Assembly (NCBI RefSeq): GCF_900129315.1
Contig: NZ_FQUS01000013.1
Location: 62,001 to 126,000, forward strand
From: Fodinibius roseus
Lineage (GTDB): Bacteria > Bacteroidota > Rhodothermia > Balneolales > Balneolaceae
Length of the DNA: 64,000 nt
Direction: 5' to 3'
The position numbers and the translations under genes were made by a program. Positions within the stretch are counted from its first letter, which is position 1; the number at the start of each line of letters is the position of its first letter. The notes under the pieces were generated by a model, which worked only from the letters and a program-made list of their open reading frames with translations, made no database searches and was not told the origin of the DNA. This document shows positions 32,363-62,171 of the stretch, in pieces.

Positions 32363-33127
32363 ATGAGTAATACAACAAGCCCAACCCAAGAACTCGATGT
32401 ACGCTCGTTAATCCCCATAAAACGGCACGAAAAACTGTTGAAGTTATTTAAGGAGCTGCCGCCGGGCGACAGTTTTGTATTTATCAACGATCACGATCCC
32501 AAACCCCTTTACTACGAATTTCGATCGATATACGGTGATGTCGTCGGCTGGGAGTACCTGCAGCGTGGGGGACGGGAGTGGACGGTGCGTGTAACGCGTA
32601 CCGAGGCGTCGCAGGGACGTGAATTTGATGACATTGCTACCCTGATGGATCTCCGCAAGACGGATCCCAAAGACTGGAAATATGCGGTTTTTCATCGTTA
32701 CGGGATGATGTTAAAAGAGGATACGATGGAAATTATCTCCGCGAAGGATCCGGAAGAAATTCGCAGGATTTTTAAGAGAAAATTTAATGAGGAATACACA
32801 TGGGTCTATAAGAAAGACCGACCGGGAGAATACGTCATTCACGTAACCAAAAAAGAGGAAACCGATCCGGCCCTCGAAGATCTATCCATTGTCAGCAGCT
32901 TTGACGTGCGCGCGCATCTGCCTGCCAAGCGTCACGAGATGGTCTTTGATGCTTTCGATGAGCTGAATCCCGGCGAAGCGTTTGTCTTTATTAATGACCA
33001 CGATCCCAAGCCGCTCTATTACCAGATGGAGGCCGAAAGCAATGAGCCGTTTCACTGGGAATACCTGGAAACGATGCCCAAAGAGTGGAAGGTGAAGGTG
33101 ATGAAGCTGAAGGATGAAACTCAGTAA
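32363..33127 (+). CDS. DUF2249 protein with two to three tandem domains
   Basis: 254 aa. The first DUF2249 unit spans about 15-90 (IPIKRHEKLLKLFKEL, SFVFINDHDPKPLYYEF, GWEYLQRGGREW). The last spans about 180-254 (PAKRHEMVFDAFDEL, AFVFINDHDPKPLYYQM, WEYLETMPKEW). The middle 70 residues (KYAVFHRYGMMLKEDTMEII ... YTWVYKKDRPGEYVIHV) look like a diverged third unit that lost the NDHDPKP motif. DUF2249 has a TusA-like fold and is common near nitrate, NO and hemerythrin genes. Its function is unknown. Confidence 0.88.
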   Translation: MSNTTSPTQELDVRSLIPIKRHEKLLKLFKELPPGDSFVFINDHDPKPLYYEFRSIYGDVVGWEYLQRGGREWTVRVTRTEASQGREFDDIATLMDLRKTDPKDWKYAVFHRYGMMLKEDTMEIISAKDPEEIRRIFKRKFNEEYTWVYKKDRPGEYVIHVTKKEETDPALEDLSIVSSFDVRAHLPAKRHEMVFDAFDELNPGEAFVFINDHDPKPLYYQMEAESNEPFHWEYLETMPKEWKVKVMKLKDETQ

Positions 33128-37321: not shown

Positions 37322-38761
37322 ATGCATAAGCATTTAATACGATTGGGGACTATACTATTGGTGACAGGAGTACTGTCGGCCTGTTCAGCCGAAGACGATT
37401 TCGATCCCGAAACAGCCGAAATCGTCGGGGAAGAAACGGCAGAGTTAACGCTTCCGCCCGACGTACCTCCCCCCATTGAACGGGATCACGCAACAAAATT
37501 AATAGCAAATATGGAGGTCATCGAAAAGGAAATGCGCCTGGCCGACGGGGTTACGTACACGATGTGGACCTTTGGCGGGGATGTCCCCGGGAAATTTATC
37601 CGCGCCCGGGAAGGGGATATGATCGAATTCCACCTGCAGAATCATCCCGACAACAAACTCCCCCACAATATTGACCTGCACGCTGTAAACGGTCCGGGCG
37701 GCGGCGCCGAGTCCACCTTTACGGCGCCGGGACGTGAAACCGTATTTACCTTTCGCGCGTTAAATCCGGGCCTGTATGTTTATCACTGCGCCACTGCGCC
37801 GGTCGGCATGCACATTGCCAACGGCATGTACGGGCTTATCCTGATCGAACCGGCCGAGGGACTTTCAGAAGTGGACGAAGAATACTATGTCATGCAAAGT
37901 GAGTTTTATACCGAAGGCGACTACGGGGAGCGGGGCCTGCAGCCGTTTGACATGGATCGTGCGATTGAAGAGGATCCGGAATATGTGGTCTTTAACGGAT
38001 CGGTAGGATCCATGCAGGGCGAAAATGCCATTACTTCCGAGCGGGGGGACCAGGTCCGGCTGTTTGTCGGGAACGGGGGACCCAACTTAACCTCTTCGTT
38101 CCACGTTATCGGAGAAATATTTGACAAGGTGCATTATGAGGGCGGCGATCGTGTACAGAATAATGTTCAGACGACCAGCATCCCGGCCGGGGGCTCGGCC
38201 ATCGTCGAGTTCGAAACGGAGGTTCCGGGCAACTATATTTTGGTGGACCACGCTATCTTCCGGGCCTTTAACAAAGGAGCACTGGCGACCCTTGCTGTCT
38301 CCGGTGAGGAGGATGAAAATGTCTTTACCGGTCAGCAGCTGGAGCAGGTCTACCAGCCGGAAGGAGGCGCTGTTCAGGAAATACCCCAGGAAGAGCGGAC
38401 GATACCCGCCGCTGAAACCCTGGAGGAACAGATGGAATACGGCAGAGAGGTATATACTTCTGTCTGTCAGGCCTGTCACATGCAGGATGGTACGGGTATT
38501 GAGGGCGCTTTCCCCCCGATAGCAAATTCTGACTACCTGAATGAAAATCCGGACCGCGGGATTAGCGCGGTCGTGCACGGACTTTCGGGTGAAATTACAG
38601 TCAACGGGGAAACCTATGACGGTGTAATGCCCCGACAAAACCTCACAAACGAGGAGGTCGCAAACGTGACCACCTATATTCTCAATAGTTTTGATAATGA
38701 AGGCGGGCGCGTTACGCCCGGGGATGTGGAACGTATCCGGGAACAGGGACCTGTTGAATAA
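37322..38761 (+). CDS. nirK: Copper nitrite reductase with C-terminal cytochrome c domain
   Basis: 479 aa lipoprotein (lipobox LSAC, Cys21) reducing nitrite to nitric oxide in the periplasm. It has two cupredoxin domains (about 60-330). Type 1 Cu ligands are His115, Cys156, His164 and Met169 (YHCATAPVGMHIANGMYG). Type 2 ligands are His120, His155 and His310. Catalytic Asp118 (PHNIDLH) and His261 (FHVIGEIFD) are intact. The motifs are closest to the AniA-type class. A cytochrome c domain (about 370-455) adds CQACH and the axial Met in GVMPRQ, giving a built-in electron donor. It is the first gene of a nirK-nirV-SCO module, with NirV following 17 bp later. Confidence 0.95.
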   Translation: MHKHLIRLGTILLVTGVLSACSAEDDFDPETAEIVGEETAELTLPPDVPPPIERDHATKLIANMEVIEKEMRLADGVTYTMWTFGGDVPGKFIRAREGDMIEFHLQNHPDNKLPHNIDLHAVNGPGGGAESTFTAPGRETVFTFRALNPGLYVYHCATAPVGMHIANGMYGLILIEPAEGLSEVDEEYYVMQSEFYTEGDYGERGLQPFDMDRAIEEDPEYVVFNGSVGSMQGENAITSERGDQVRLFVGNGGPNLTSSFHVIGEIFDKVHYEGGDRVQNNVQTTSIPAGGSAIVEFETEVPGNYILVDHAIFRAFNKGALATLAVSGEEDENVFTGQQLEQVYQPEGGAVQEIPQEERTIPAAETLEEQMEYGREVYTSVCQACHMQDGTGIEGAFPPIANSDYLNENPDRGISAVVHGLSGEITVNGETYDGVMPRQNLTNEEVANVTTYILNSFDNEGGRVTPGDVERIREQGPVE

Positions 38762-38778
38762 CTTGATGACATAACCTC

Positions 38779-39561
38779 TTGTTGTACCGAAAACCCATAC
38801 TTTTACTCTTCCTGCTGGCGGGATGTTCCCTTTTAGCGCGAGCACAGCCAAACGGCATGGTTGCGATAGAACGGGATACTTTTATGCCGTTCTACAGCTC
38901 TGCCGGCGACAGTATAAGGGTGGAATCCTTTTACCTGGATACCCACCCCGTAACCAATGCCGAATTCCTGAAGTTTGTGACGGAGAACAGGCAATGGCGG
39001 CGGTCGCAGGCCAAGAGTGTTTTTGTGGATGAGAATTATCTCGGCCACTGGGAGGGTGACCTTGATATCGGGACCAACACTGCCCCGGAGAGCCCTGTTA
39101 CCAATGTGTCCTGGTTTGCCGCACGGGCTTTCGCCAAGTGGAAGGGCAAGCGGCTGCCGACCCTCCACGAGTGGGAATACGTAGCTTCTGCCAGTGCATC
39201 AAAGCCGCTTGCGAGTCGTGACAGGGCGTTTGTGCGACAAATACTGGATTGGTACAGCCGGCCGAATCCCGAGCAGAAACCGGCAGTGGGAGAAGGACGT
39301 CCCAATTACCACGGCGTATATGACATGCACGGGTTGATTTGGGAGTGGGTACGGGATTTTAATACCGTGTTTATCAGTGGAGAATCGCGGGCCGACCAGG
39401 GAGAGCTGAAACAGTTTTACTGTGCCGCCGGGAGCTCCGTTGCCGCCGATGCGGATAAGGCAAATTATGCCGCTTTCCTGCGCTATGCTTTTCGCGGTAG
39501 CCTGGAGGCTGATTTTTCGGTTGGCAACCTGGGCTTTCGCTGCGCCCGGGATAAGAAATAA
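38779..39561 (+). CDS. nirV: NirV-like SUMF1/FGE-fold protein, module 1
   Basis: 260 aa, exported (signal peptide with LLLFLLAGCSLLARAQ). It has the SUMF1/formylglycine-generating-enzyme fold: FYLDTHPVTNAEFLKFV, SPVTNVSWFAARAFAKWKGK, RLPTLHEWEYVA, WEWVRDF and the terminal NLGFRCARD. NirV proteins follow nirK in many denitrifiers; their role is unproven, possibly nitrite-reductase maturation. The FGE cysteine pair is not obvious; one Cys occurs in FYCAAGSS. The only in-frame start at this place is TTG at 38779, 17 bp after the nirK stop. Confidence 0.88.
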   Translation: MLYRKPILLLFLLAGCSLLARAQPNGMVAIERDTFMPFYSSAGDSIRVESFYLDTHPVTNAEFLKFVTENRQWRRSQAKSVFVDENYLGHWEGDLDIGTNTAPESPVTNVSWFAARAFAKWKGKRLPTLHEWEYVASASASKPLASRDRAFVRQILDWYSRPNPEQKPAVGEGRPNYHGVYDMHGLIWEWVRDFNTVFISGESRADQGELKQFYCAAGSSVAADADKANYAAFLRYAFRGSLEADFSVGNLGFRCARDKK

Positions 39562-39573
39562 ATATTATAAATC

Positions 39574-40239
39574 ATGACCATATATAGTTATCAAAACACG
39601 GTCTTTCTCTTTTTAGTCACTGCTGTATTCCTTGCGGGAGCTTGCAGCAGCGGCGAGAAACAACAGGCCGCCCAATCAGACGGGATGGCTATGTCGGATG
39701 ATGAGCATGCAGCTCACGCCGATATGCAGATGGATGCCGGGGAACCGACCGGTGAATCCATCTATAATGTAAGCAGCACCTGGCAAAACCGCCGCGGGGA
39801 ATCGGTTACCCTGAACAGCTTGGGCGGCAAGGTACAGGTGGTGGCGATGGTTTATACCCACTGCGAGCATGCCTGTCCCCGTATTCTCGCTGACATGCAG
39901 CGCATCAGGGATGGCTTGCCGGAGAAAGCTCTATCAGCCACAAACTTTACGATTATTTCTATTGATCCCGAGCGCGATACGCCGGGACGCCTTACGGATT
40001 TTGCCCGGGAAAATAATCTCTCGGACGACCAGTGGACCCTGTTAAATGGCGATGAGGGAGATATTTTGGAAATAGCAGCCCTGCTGGGGGTAAAATACAA
40101 GCGGATCAGCGATACCGACTTTACGCATTCCAACATGATCACCGTGCTTAACAAAGAGGGGGAGGTCGCCTACCAGCGCAGACAGCTGACGGATCAACAG
40201 GACAAGATCATTGATGTCATTCATGATTTAGGCAGCTGA
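39574..40239 (+). CDS. SCO1/SenC-family copper chaperone lipoprotein, module 1
   Basis: 221 aa. The lipobox LAGAC is followed by a Met/His-rich linker (SDGMAMSDDEHAAHADMQMD) able to bind copper. The thioredoxin-like fold has the copper motif CEHAC in VYTHCEHACPRILADMQRI and the distant His in FTHSNMITVL. SCO proteins load copper into CuA or other copper sites; here the likely client is the nitrite reductase. It starts 12 bp after NirV. Confidence 0.93.
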   Translation: MTIYSYQNTVFLFLVTAVFLAGACSSGEKQQAAQSDGMAMSDDEHAAHADMQMDAGEPTGESIYNVSSTWQNRRGESVTLNSLGGKVQVVAMVYTHCEHACPRILADMQRIRDGLPEKALSATNFTIISIDPERDTPGRLTDFARENNLSDDQWTLLNGDEGDILEIAALLGVKYKRISDTDFTHSNMITVLNKEGEVAYQRRQLTDQQDKIIDVIHDLGS

Positions 40240-40788: not shown

Positions 40789-41922
40789 ATGAACTTTCCA
40801 AAACGTACCTTAGCCCTTTTAACCGGACTAATCCTTGCAGGTTTTTTTACTCTTGCACAGGCCCAAACAGATGAATACGAGCTGGATGGCATGACCTTCG
40901 GCATGCCGGAAGCAGAAGTCTTCACTGAAGACTATGACGGGCCTCCCGTGGTAGGCGAATATTTGACAATGTTACCCAACCTCAAACCGCTGGATTATGA
41001 AGGTAATAAACATCACGAGGTCCGAATTGATATTATCGCCCAGGAAATAGAAGTGGCCGACGGGGTCAAATATAAAGCATGGACATTCGGTGGTACAGTT
41101 CCCGGTCCGGTGTTGCATGTAAAGGAAGGCGATCGAATTACTTTCGTAATGAAAAACCGTTCAGACGAAGAAGTGACGATCACAGAACCTACAAAAGAAG
41201 GTTCTCCCTTTATGCAGCAGGTCGCTGAAAACAACTTTATGAACGCGCAGCCGGGTACCATGCCTATGCCGCACTCCATGGATTTCCATGCGGGAACCGT
41301 TGCAAAAGATGACAAGTGGAGAAGTATTTCTCCGGGCGAATCCATTACGTTCGACTGGGTTGCCAATTATGCAGGCTCATATATCTATCACTGCGGTACG
41401 CCCAGTGTACTTATGCACACGGCTATGGGGCAGCACGGAGTGGTTGTCGTATCCCCCAAGGATGGCTACGGCACAGATTACGAAGTCGATAAAGAATTCG
41501 TAGTGGTTCAATCCGAGTATTACCTGAAGAAAGGTGCCGGCGACTTATACCAGTACGATTTTGAGGCCGCTCAAAGTGTAAATCCATCCCATGTGGTATT
41601 CAACGGGCACCAGACCATCCTGCATGACCGACCTCTGGAAGCCAGTGCCGGCGACCGTGTTCGCCTGCATGTTTCAAACAACGGTCCCAGCGGCACCTCC
41701 AGCTTCCACGTAATCGGTGCCATATTCGATCGTGTTTGGTTGGAAGGCCATCCTTTTAATGAAATGCGCGGAATGCAGACCGTATTGTTAGGTGCTTCAA
41801 GCTCTGCCACGATAGACTTTATCGTGCCTGAAGAAGGGAAATACATCCTGATCGACCACGAATTTGCCGATGCCGAGAAGGGCGCCACGGGTACCCTGAA
41901 AGCCGGTCCCCGTATCAACTAA
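40789..41922 (+). CDS. nirK: Copper nitrite reductase, second copy
   Basis: 377 aa, exported with a cleavable signal peptide (LLTGLILAGFFTLAQAQ); no lipid anchor and no cytochrome domain. Type 2 Cu ligands are His167, His201 and His357. Catalytic Asp165 (MPHSMDFH) and His307 (FHVIGAIFD) are present. Type 1 ligands are His162, Cys202 and His210. The segment YHCGTPSVLMHTAMGQHG has Gln215 where the axial Met usually lies, with Met213 two residues earlier. This may give a stellacyanin-like copper site or a shifted ligand. It has a 40-residue N-terminal extension compared with NirK of module 1. It leads the second nirK-nirV-SCO module. Confidence 0.94.
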   Translation: MNFPKRTLALLTGLILAGFFTLAQAQTDEYELDGMTFGMPEAEVFTEDYDGPPVVGEYLTMLPNLKPLDYEGNKHHEVRIDIIAQEIEVADGVKYKAWTFGGTVPGPVLHVKEGDRITFVMKNRSDEEVTITEPTKEGSPFMQQVAENNFMNAQPGTMPMPHSMDFHAGTVAKDDKWRSISPGESITFDWVANYAGSYIYHCGTPSVLMHTAMGQHGVVVVSPKDGYGTDYEVDKEFVVVQSEYYLKKGAGDLYQYDFEAAQSVNPSHVVFNGHQTILHDRPLEASAGDRVRLHVSNNGPSGTSSFHVIGAIFDRVWLEGHPFNEMRGMQTVLLGASSSATIDFIVPEEGKYILIDHEFADAEKGATGTLKAGPRIN

Positions 41923-41966: not shown

Positions 41967-42779
41967 ATGAAATTCCTGACGAACATAGTACCTGTTACCA
42001 TCCCGCTGCCCTCGCTGGCGGTGGTGATGGTTTTCGGTCTGGCAGCGGCCGCCCGGGCCCAGACGGACAGGGTACTGGTTCCGTCGGGATCATTTCATTC
42101 CGTAATGCCCGAAGTGAAGGGAGAAGCCGTTCCGGTAGATTCTTTCTATCTGGATATTACAGCTGTAACCAATGAGAAGTTTGCAGAGTTTACAGATCAA
42201 AATGAAAATTGGCGGCCGGATGAAGTACCGGCTGTATTTACAAACAAAGGGTATTTGAAACACTGGCAAGAAGAAGGCCACAAGCCGGATTATGAGCGTA
42301 TTGGCCGTGAACGTCCCGTAACTAATGTGTCATGGTTTGCCGCAAATGCGTATTGTCAATGGAGCGGGGGACGCCTTCCCACACTGAATGAGTGGGAATA
42401 TTCCGCACAACTCATGGATTTCGATTCATCCGAAGCGGTAAGTGAATTTACCGCAAAATTAGTCAGCTGGTACTCCAGTGTGGACACCAATAACCTCGGA
42501 GAAGTAGGATCTACCGGTATAGAAACCCGAGTAGGCGTGAAGGACCAGTTCGGGCTAATCATGGAATGGGTGCAGGATTTTAAACCACCCGTTTCCGACG
42601 ATCTTTCCCTGGATTGCGGTACGGTCGGAAGAATGCAGCAGCTCGGCAACGCATACAGCTATGCCGCTTCTATCCGCTATATTACCCGCATGAGCTATAA
42701 TCCCAAAAGCTCCATCGGCACGATGGGCTTTCGCTGCGCCTATGATATTGGCCCGAAACTCGAATCGAACGAACCATAA
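41967..42779 (+). CDS. nirV: NirV-like SUMF1/FGE-fold protein, module 2
   Basis: 270 aa, exported by a signal peptide ending near AAAARAQTD. It has the same fold and order as the protein at 38779: FYLDITAVTNEKFAEFTDQ, RPVTNVSWFAANAYCQWSGG, RLPTLNEWEYSAQ, MEWVQDF and TMGFRCAYD. It differs in a Cys at DCGTVGR instead of FYCAAG and has an extra Cys in AYCQW. It starts 44 bp after nirK and 6 bp before the next SCO gene, so it is co-transcribed. Confidence 0.9.
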   Translation: MKFLTNIVPVTIPLPSLAVVMVFGLAAAARAQTDRVLVPSGSFHSVMPEVKGEAVPVDSFYLDITAVTNEKFAEFTDQNENWRPDEVPAVFTNKGYLKHWQEEGHKPDYERIGRERPVTNVSWFAANAYCQWSGGRLPTLNEWEYSAQLMDFDSSEAVSEFTAKLVSWYSSVDTNNLGEVGSTGIETRVGVKDQFGLIMEWVQDFKPPVSDDLSLDCGTVGRMQQLGNAYSYAASIRYITRMSYNPKSSIGTMGFRCAYDIGPKLESNEP

Positions 42780-42785
42780 AAAAAC

Positions 42786-43394
42786 ATGAAAACACTTCCC
42801 ATCATATTGATCTTCCTTTTTGGGGGGACATATTTGTATGCCCAGCATCACCACGCAGCGGATAACGAACTGGAAGCCGGGAAAATAAATGCCGGGCACT
42901 CGCTGTATCACCTGGATGCCCCGTGGACAACTCACCGGGATGAAACTGTCAAGCTCAGCGATTTCAGAGGATCGCCTATTATTGTTGTAATGTTTTATGG
43001 AAACTGCAGGGAAGTGTGCCCGATTTTAATTCAGGATACCTGGCGCCTGTACAACAGGGTAGATACCTCCCGGAGAGAAACGGTGAAGGTGCTGGCCATT
43101 ACTTTCGATACCGAAAATGATACTCCCGAGGTATTACGGGAATACGCGAACTATGAACAGCTGGATATTCCCGGCTGGCATTTCATGACCTCCGAAGACG
43201 CAACTGTTCGCAGCCTTGCCATGATGCTGGGCGTGCAGTACTCAAAAAAGAGCGATGGCCATTTTGCTCATACCAATCTTGTCACGGTATTGGATGAAGA
43301 AGGCAAAATCGCCCGGCGTGTCGAAGGATTAAACCAGCCAATGGAAGAAGCGGCCGCTGTCATTGATAGTATGAATAAGGAGGAAAAGCTATGA
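42786..43394 (+). CDS. SCO-family copper chaperone, module 2
   Basis: 202 aa with a signal peptide followed by a His-rich start (AQHHHAADN). The copper motif is CREVC in FYGNCREVCPILIQD, and the third ligand His is in FAHTNLVTVL. It resembles the module 1 SCO but is shorter and lacks the lipobox and Met-rich linker. It ends overlapping the next gene by 4 bp. Confidence 0.92.
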   Translation: MKTLPIILIFLFGGTYLYAQHHHAADNELEAGKINAGHSLYHLDAPWTTHRDETVKLSDFRGSPIIVVMFYGNCREVCPILIQDTWRLYNRVDTSRRETVKVLAITFDTENDTPEVLREYANYEQLDIPGWHFMTSEDATVRSLAMMLGVQYSKKSDGHFAHTNLVTVLDEEGKIARRVEGLNQPMEEAAAVIDSMNKEEKL

Positions 43395-43846
43395 AGTATT
43401 CTGCAATATTATTTTTCTTTGGCTGTTTATGGATGGGCAACGAGGTGCTTGCCCATAAGAGTCAAACGCTTTATATAGATACGGTTAGCGTTGAAGTCCA
43501 CGGCACAGGTGAAAAGGCGCGATTTGAACCCGCTGTTGTAACCATTAGTCCGGGCGATGTCCTTCAGTTCGTAGTACGTGAGGGACGACATACCGTAACC
43601 GCTTATCATCCTGACAACCGGCGCCCTCTTAGAATGCCCGGATCAGCCGAATCTTTTGACTCCGGATTGCTGGCAAGTGGTGATGTCTGGTTTTTGACGA
43701 TCTCCCTCGCGGGCGTGTATGATTATTACTGCCTCCCGCACGAACAAATGGGCCACGCGGGACGCATTATTGCGGGTGCTGTTGAGGCTGTACCGGACTA
43801 CCCTGCAGAAGGCATGCCTCCGGCTGTACTCAAGATATTTAATTAA
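43391..43846 (+). CDS. Plastocyanin/halocyanin-like cupredoxin
   Basis: 151 aa with a signal peptide. A single cupredoxin domain has His in GRHTVTAYHPDN and the C-terminal cluster YYCLPHEQMGHAGRI (Cys, His, Met), a complete type 1 copper site of the pseudoazurin type. It starts inside the SCO stop codon (ATGA overlap). It probably passes electrons to the nitrite reductase. Confidence 0.9.
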   Translation: MKYSAILFFFGCLWMGNEVLAHKSQTLYIDTVSVEVHGTGEKARFEPAVVTISPGDVLQFVVREGRHTVTAYHPDNRRPLRMPGSAESFDSGLLASGDVWFLTISLAGVYDYYCLPHEQMGHAGRIIAGAVEAVPDYPAEGMPPAVLKIFN

Positions 43847-43847
43847 A

Positions 43848-43987
43848 AGAGGGCCTTGATTAACCATGGGTTTTGTTCAACAGCATCCCCTGAGCGATTT
43901 TAAAACCGCAGTGTATACACAATACATGAGAATGTTGAAATCGCGAACATGCAGCATTTGGGCAAAACAACGGTTTTGCAAAGGCCT
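43848..43987 (+). repeat. Dispersed intergenic palindromic repeat, copy 3
   Basis: The arms are AGAGGGCCTTGATTAACC and GGTTTTGCAAAGGCCT. The inner pair AGCGATTTTAAAAC / GAAATCGCG is also complementary. It lies between the cupredoxin and azurin genes and shares the AAAACAACGGTTTTGCA right arm with the 51625 copy. Confidence 0.75.
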
Positions 43988-44047
43988 ATAAAAATGAATC
44001 ATTTTAACTACACAACACAAACAAATAAATCCCAACGAGGACCTATT

Positions 44048-44503
44048 ATGAAATCACTAACAAAAATAACAGTAATTCTGGCCGTTTTATTCACCGGCAT
44101 TGTTTCATCGGCGATGGCGCAGAGAACTATAGAAATCATTGGAACCGATCACATGAAGTTTGACGTGACGACGATTGAAGCCACCCCCGGCGAGGAGATT
44201 ACCATCAGGCTTACCACCAAGAGTAACCTCCCCAAGCAGGCGATGGCTCACAACGTGGTGGTCGTAGACAACGATATTGATGTTAATGAATTTGCAAACG
44301 CTTCGGCCCGTGCCCGCGATAACCAGTACCTTGCTCCGGACTACGAGGATGATATCATTGCAGCCACGGATTTAGCCGGCGGCGGTGAAACCGTTGAGGT
44401 AACCTTTACGGTGCCCGAAGAGGAAGGCGATTATGAATATATCTGCTCCTTCCCGGGACACTATGCAGCCGGTATGAAGGGAGTATTGACCGTCAAACAG
44501 TAA
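44048..44503 (+). CDS. Azurin-like copper protein
   Basis: 151 aa from the ATG at 44048, preceded by GAGGA; longer in-frame starts run into repeat copy 3 and are not used. The signal peptide is ILAVLFTGIVSSAMAQ. The azurin domain shows EIIGTDHMKFD, the His ligand in AMAHNVVVV, and ICSFPGHYAAGM with Cys, His and Met. It is a paralogue of the lipoprotein at 24579, without anchor and insertion. It is a soluble periplasmic electron donor for NirK, followed by a terminator. Confidence 0.95.
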   Translation: MKSLTKITVILAVLFTGIVSSAMAQRTIEIIGTDHMKFDVTTIEATPGEEITIRLTTKSNLPKQAMAHNVVVVDNDIDVNEFANASARARDNQYLAPDYEDDIIAATDLAGGGETVEVTFTVPEEEGDYEYICSFPGHYAAGMKGVLTVKQ

Positions 44504-61779: not shown

Positions 61780-62171
61780 ACAAGATCTTTTAGTTATAAT
61801 AGTTAGTTTCTGCCGGAATAGTTATACGATCAATCAATCAGCGAAATTAAGAACCTTGAGGGTTTAATTTACGGGGAATGTATTAAAATTCAATCTCTTA
61901 AATGAAAATTAATGGCTTTTGTTTCTATCCACCGCAACAAAAGAGGGGATTTGTCGTCGATCACCACCGGGATAACCCAGAAGCACTGAGAAAACATGGC
62001 GGGTCAGGGAAGGTCATACAAGCAAAAAATTTGGAAGCTGATTCACCGGTATTCTGAACTTCTACCTCTAACATAGATTCTACTTGCTTTCTTAACATTA
62101 TGATACTTTATTGATTCTATTAGGTTGCAGGCCATTAAATTACGACAATAAACACAAGAAGGGATATCGCT
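61780..62171. other. Divergent intergenic region ThuA / AraC
   Basis: About 390 bp with no acceptable gene. It is A+T-rich at both ends, consistent with promoters for the divergent genes. The middle (about 61930-62010) is more G+C-rich but carries no recognised remnant. Confidence 0.5.

Follow-up and report, generated by a model that had tools for sequence, protein, structure and literature searches.

A copper nitrite reductase of Fodinibius roseus, termed NirK2 here, is predicted to bind its type 1 copper through Gln215 in the axial position. This enzyme is encoded in the stretch of DNA analysed (the window: 64,000 nucleotides, positions 62,001 to 126,000 of contig NZ_FQUS01000013.1) together with a second enzyme of the same kind, NirK1. 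Gln as axial ligand had been put forward in the initial annotation, and it is now supported by alignment, by the invariance of the residue across a clade and by the precedent of a crystal structure (6HBE). The aligned sequences mark the axial Gln as fixed in one clade of Balneolaceae, far beyond chance or local error, because the residue is invariant in the orthologues and Met is found in the sister clade. In the whole account, which we consider likely, NirK2 would be a secreted two-domain NirK with a Gln215-ligated type 1 copper, and the cupredoxins of its gene cassette would be the electron donors. The gene and the residues that bear on this account are as follows (positions in the window).

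40789-41922, plus strand: NirK2, two-domain copper nitrite reductase; ORF with ATG start, 377 aa, with a signal peptide and an N-terminal extension of ~30 aa
41170-41262, plus strand: insert of ~30 residues directly before the first type 1 (T1) His, absent from NirK1 in the alignment
41272-41289, plus strand: HSMDFH, with His162 (T1), Asp165 (catalytic Asp) and His167 (type 2, T2); invariant columns
41389-41418, plus strand: His201 (T2), Cys202 (T1), loop and His210 (T1); invariant columns
41425-41427, plus strand: Met213 (ATG), at ligand His+3, predicted non-ligand; invariant in the Gln clade, column N/S/L/A/K in Met-type and L/Y/F/G in TsNirK-like enzymes
41431-41433, plus strand: Gln215 (CAG), predicted type 1 copper axial ligand; column of the axial Met in NirK1, Geobacillus NirK and others, and of Gln130 in TsNirK
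41707-41715, plus strand: His307 (catalytic His) and Ile309; columns kept
41857-41859, plus strand: His357, T2 ligand from domain 2; column kept

The NirK2 frame is a real one in the ORF list of the window, and its product reads YHCGTPSVLMHTAMGQHG. It matches the NirK model TIGR02376 (E 8e-56) with 190 bits, below the NCBI cut-off of 296, and the proven Geobacillus NirK, as a 283-aa fragment, likewise stays below this value with 201 bits. The cut-off thus set seems to miss true NirKs of the Geobacillus/NirK2 branch. The top PDB matches are Geobacillus NirK structures (3WKQ/3X1E, E 2e-67), and a fold of two cupredoxin domains is borne out by an AlphaFold2 model (pLDDT 86), for which Foldseek gave 3X1E as best match (E 2e-32, TM 0.84 by target). 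The model is copper-free, with low confidence (66-68) at residues 161-180, around His162. The His, Cys and His of the type 1 site are present with Cys-x7-His spacing (His162, Cys202 and His210), and the loop runs H201-C202-GTPSVLM-H210-TAMG-Q215-HG, so that the axial Met is missing and Gln215 is found instead. The T2 His set is complete, with His167 and His201 in domain 1 and His357 in domain 2, and the catalytic Asp165 and His307 and the pocket residue Ile309 are all kept in an alignment of 59 NirKs. The insert that precedes the first T1 His might shield the surface at which a donor docks. Its length varies across the NirKs (L039, L040 and L048 among them): some orthologues have ~25 residues more, and the insert of the Met-type sister clade is shorter.

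Gln215 falls gap-free after Cys202 in the axial Met column, whether NirK2 is aligned with NirK1, with Geobacillus NirK (loop with the aligned axial Met: CGTKPVLQHIANGM) or with the 59-NirK set. The pairwise alignment agrees with the earlier proposal that Met169 of NirK1 is the counterpart of Gln215, and the wide alignment that had been suggested as a check places Gln215, not Met213, in the canonical axial column. Replacing Met by Gln takes at least two base changes. Orthologues were collected by searches of relatives, phylum and class and by a short-peptide scan of 84,980 species genomes; all 26 distinct Balneolaceae sequences have Gln, and all four sister-clade sequences (Bacteroidia) have Met. 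The Gln clade occurs in 25 of 244 genomes of the class, every one in a single family, and Gln is kept in members down to 52-60% identity with NirK2 (loop VLQHMSMGQYG). Sequencing error or a pseudogene has been ruled out by the 26 distinct orthologues with open frames.

An axial Gln in a NirK is already known from Thermus scotoductus (TsNirK), a precedent that the initial annotation missed. In the crystal structure 6HBE, Gln130 at His+5 binds copper via its side-chain oxygen; this enzyme is active, with a turnover of 65 per s, and oxidises external pseudoazurin (PMC6400189), so that a NirK does not strictly need an axial Met. TsNirK and NirK2 have in common the NirK core and the axial Gln at His+5, but TsNirK carries a fused C-terminal cupredoxin, whereas NirK2 ends after domain 2 and is accompanied by free cupredoxins. 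In addition, TsNirK has Ser for the catalytic Asp and Val for Ile, where NirK2 keeps Asp165 and Ile309, its Cys-His loop is longer, and it lies on a different tree branch. A group of proteins of 575-640 aa, of the same order (L018-L022, L026 and L027; loop CAPGGHAIPMHVILGQYG or near it), has the axial Gln, the Ser at the catalytic position and the Val, as TsNirK does. One member, L021, matches almost all of TsNirK (E 4e-130), and an amicyanin-like C-terminal domain is seen in L018. These proteins are also extended N-terminally, by a segment that bears a CxxC-type motif (ACDWCN / ACPACN).

A NirK tree from which the columns of the axial loop and of the insert had been removed gives the NirK2 clade a Met-bearing Bacteroidia clade as its sister (support 98/92) and places the TsNirK-like group with Geobacillus NirK, a topology that needs two Met/Gln changes. 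Separate origins of the Gln in the NirK2 clade and in the TsNirK-like group are therefore favoured, not proven, because a single clade of all Gln NirKs is not rejected (p-AU 0.10). Searches of openly available papers gave no report on further natural Gln NirKs or on axial-His cupredoxins, nor any description of a two-domain, unfused Gln-NirK with intact catalytic Asp and free cupredoxin partners on a separate branch. The closest solved relative of NirK2, by sequence and fold, is the NirK of Geobacillus thermodenitrificans/kaustophilus (3X1E, 3WI9), which has two domains and an equal CGT..VL.H loop length but differs in its axial Met, in Asn at His+3 and in lacking the ~30-residue insert. The Met-type 'HCGTP' NirKs of Bacteroidia (L051, L069-L071) are like NirK2 in the CGTP loop and the HS.DFHA region and unlike it in the axial Met (MISGM) and the shorter insert; another of this type, L108, adjoins DUF2249 and RIC-hemerythrin genes instead of NirV, SCO1 and cupredoxin genes. 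The type 1 copper proposed for NirK2, with His2-Cys-Gln ligation and a lower potential, has its counterpart in stellacyanin and azurin M121Q, although stellacyanin and azurin are single-domain electron carriers and NirK2 is an enzyme.

The genes around NirK2 in the window are these.

37322-38761, plus strand: NirK1, three-domain NirK with fused C-terminal cytochrome c (PF00034) and axial Met169; best PDB match 2ZOO (PhNiR), E 2e-188
38779-40239, plus strand: NirV1 and SCO1a of the NirK1 cassette, with no cupredoxin adjoining (ORFs, Pfam)
41967-42779, plus strand: NirV-like FGE-sulfatase-domain protein (PF03781, E 2e-27); adjoins NirK2 in 11/11 loci
42786-43394, plus strand: SCO1/SenC copper chaperone (PF02630); 11/11 loci
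43391-43846, plus strand: plastocyanin/pseudoazurin-like cupredoxin (PF00127), candidate donor, with His122 (43754-43756) for the axial Met; 10/11 loci
43949-44503, plus strand: azurin/auracyanin-like cupredoxin (TIGR02695, E 5e-23) with normal Met, candidate donor

NirK1 belongs with the heme c-Cu NirKs of Ralstonia pickettii (RpNiR) and Pseudoalteromonas (PhNiR), which share core and T2 site with NirK2 and differ from it in their fused cytochrome c and axial Met. A recent duplication of NirK1 as the source of NirK2 has been ruled out, given ~40% identity in the aligned core and positions in different major branches. The description of NirK2 as a second NirK holds for the source genome but not for the family, where the Gln enzyme is the sole NirK at E < 1e-15 in most relatives (for example G002, G003, G009, G014, G028, G032, G228, G299, G303, G318 and G331), so that a role as a special second copy across the family is discarded. 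One genome, G024, has three NirK kinds: a Gln type (L105, on contig C11), a Met type with fused cytochrome c and another Met type of 454 aa (L114, on C5) with an azurin-like gene next downstream. Among the 12 Gln-NirK genomes, nosZ is present in 10, NirS (cytochrome cd1) gave only weak partial matches, in G000 (33 bits at best), and the qNor-type NorB domain gave no match. The Gln enzyme is likely a working nitrite reductase and not a spare copy, as suggested by its being mostly the sole NirK, by the near-absence of NirS and by the frequency of nosZ.

The scan of genome contigs for NirKs covered close relatives of the source genome. In all 11 full loci found on their contigs, one cupredoxin gene or more comes after NirK2, NirV and SCO1; it is plastocyanin-like in 10 and azurin-like in its place in L036, and both kinds occur in four. 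Within 58 relatives, a close homologue of the plastocyanin-like gene is found in exactly the nine genomes with close NirK2 orthologues. The Gln-NirKs L104 and L105, which are more distant, have an azurin-like gene as their immediate downstream neighbour; Gln and donor do not go together strictly, because such a gene also adjoins some Met-type NirKs (L114 and L115). The idea of a different donor for NirK2, raised in the earlier reading, gains support from this arrangement, with a fused cytochrome c in NirK1 and free cupredoxin genes downstream of NirK2. Upstream of NirK2, a DUF2249 protein is encoded at 32363-33127 and is kept there in several relatives (L031-L033, L104); in the source window, the NirK1 cassette and other genes separate it from NirK2.

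The plastocyanin-like protein itself has the motif Cys114-LP-His117-EQMG-His122, in which His122 is aligned to the axial Met of plastocyanin CEPHQGAGM. All 11 locus copies and the close copies of relatives share this His (CxPHExxGHxGR; L031-L041, L093-L101), with M, L or V at His+3, and the distant homologues L102 and L103 have an axial Met. The NirK2 cassette may thus encode two copper proteins that have each given up the axial Met, as far as their aligned motifs tell. It is conceivable, though we put it forward tentatively, that a change of Met to Gln in NirK and of Met to His in the plastocyanin-like donor produced in Balneolaceae a co-tuned copper relay, a His-axial cupredoxin feeding a Gln-axial NirK. 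A natural His-axial cupredoxin would be unusual, if true.

The proposed mechanism starts from the observed sequence, its conservation, the cassette and the branch. NirK2 would be a secreted, trimer-type, two-domain enzyme that reduces nitrite to NO at the intact type 2 copper, as homology suggests for fold and activity. Its type 1 copper would be held by His162, Cys202, His210 and the axial side-chain oxygen of Gln215, a stellacyanin-like site assigned by homology as well. Electrons would arrive from the plastocyanin-like and/or azurin-like cupredoxins of the cassette, the putative donors, and would pass from the Gln-ligated copper over the Cys202-His201 bridge to the type 2 copper; SCO1 and NirV would help with maturation or copper supply. 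The Gln would be an innovation of the Balneolaceae branch that most likely replaced an ancestral Met. Its probable effect, as we infer, is a type 1 potential that is lower, or a reorganisation that is smaller, to suit the cupredoxin donor. Against any need of Gln for such donors stands the use of cupredoxins by many Met-type NirKs. The potential of azurin falls by ~64-91 mV in the M121Q mutant (PMC5698706); rusticyanin M148Q has 560 mV vs 680 mV in the wild type, and stellacyanin 265 mV vs 375 mV in plastocyanin (PMC11881046). By analogy, Gln probably lowers the type 1 potential of NirK2, by a shift whose size is gauged from the azurin M121Q/stellacyanin-type precedent.

A rearranged loop, with Met213 at His+3 as axial ligand in place of Gln215 and an ordinary His2-Cys-Met centre, had been offered from the outset as an alternative. 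All Gln-clade sequences have Met213, for which the Met-type sister clade has Ser, so that Met and Gln changed together, as this alternative would lead one to expect. However, other NirKs do not use His+3 for a ligand, as its variability across the 59 compared shows (N/S/L/A/K with axial Met, L/Y/F/G in the TsNirK-like Gln enzymes), and the ligand is at His+5 in every Met-type NirK compared and in the TsNirK crystal; no gap separates Cys202 from Gln215. In the pseudoazurin loop CAPHVGMGM, the later Met is the ligand. The Met-Gly-X pattern of NirK2 is also present in pseudoazurin (3TU6). Ligation by Met213 is not supported by these comparisons and appears very improbable, and Gln215 is kept as the predicted ligand.

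Two further readings concern what the protein does. NirK2 could be a two-domain multicopper oxidase or copper-handling protein and no nitrite reductase, as its score below the NCBI NirK cut-off, the SCO1 gene in its operon and its Pfam label, merely multicopper oxidase, might suggest. This is quite unlikely, since the catalytic Asp and His, the Ile and all three T2 His follow the NirK pattern, the extra His of a trinuclear site are missing from its motifs (single-His SSFHVIG and IDHEF), tree and fold place it with Geobacillus NirK, NirV adjoins it, and the Gln enzyme is the sole NirK candidate in several nosZ-bearing genomes. Alternatively, the Gln might be real yet functionally neutral, a tolerated ligand with no tuning of potential or donor choice. 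Rusticyanin M148Q, azurin M121Q and TsNirK all stay blue copper sites, in keeping with such tolerance, but in the model proteins the potential moves by anything from tens of mV to ~120 mV, and the invariance of Gln across so divergent a clade argues for selection. Neutrality is therefore a less probable explanation, which we regard as unlikely, and a Gln that tunes the type 1 copper is preferred.

The effects of the axial ligand of NirK have so far been probed mostly by point mutants. A single genome with a Met-type and a Gln-type NirK few kilobases apart, together with Met-bearing relatives, offers a native test of potential, donor choice and rate. The Balneolaceae enzymes are beyond the reach of the NCBI NirK model at its cut-off. 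A Gln-ligated NirK is no Thermus curiosity, since many genomes of the salt-loving family Balneolaceae yielded no other NirK.
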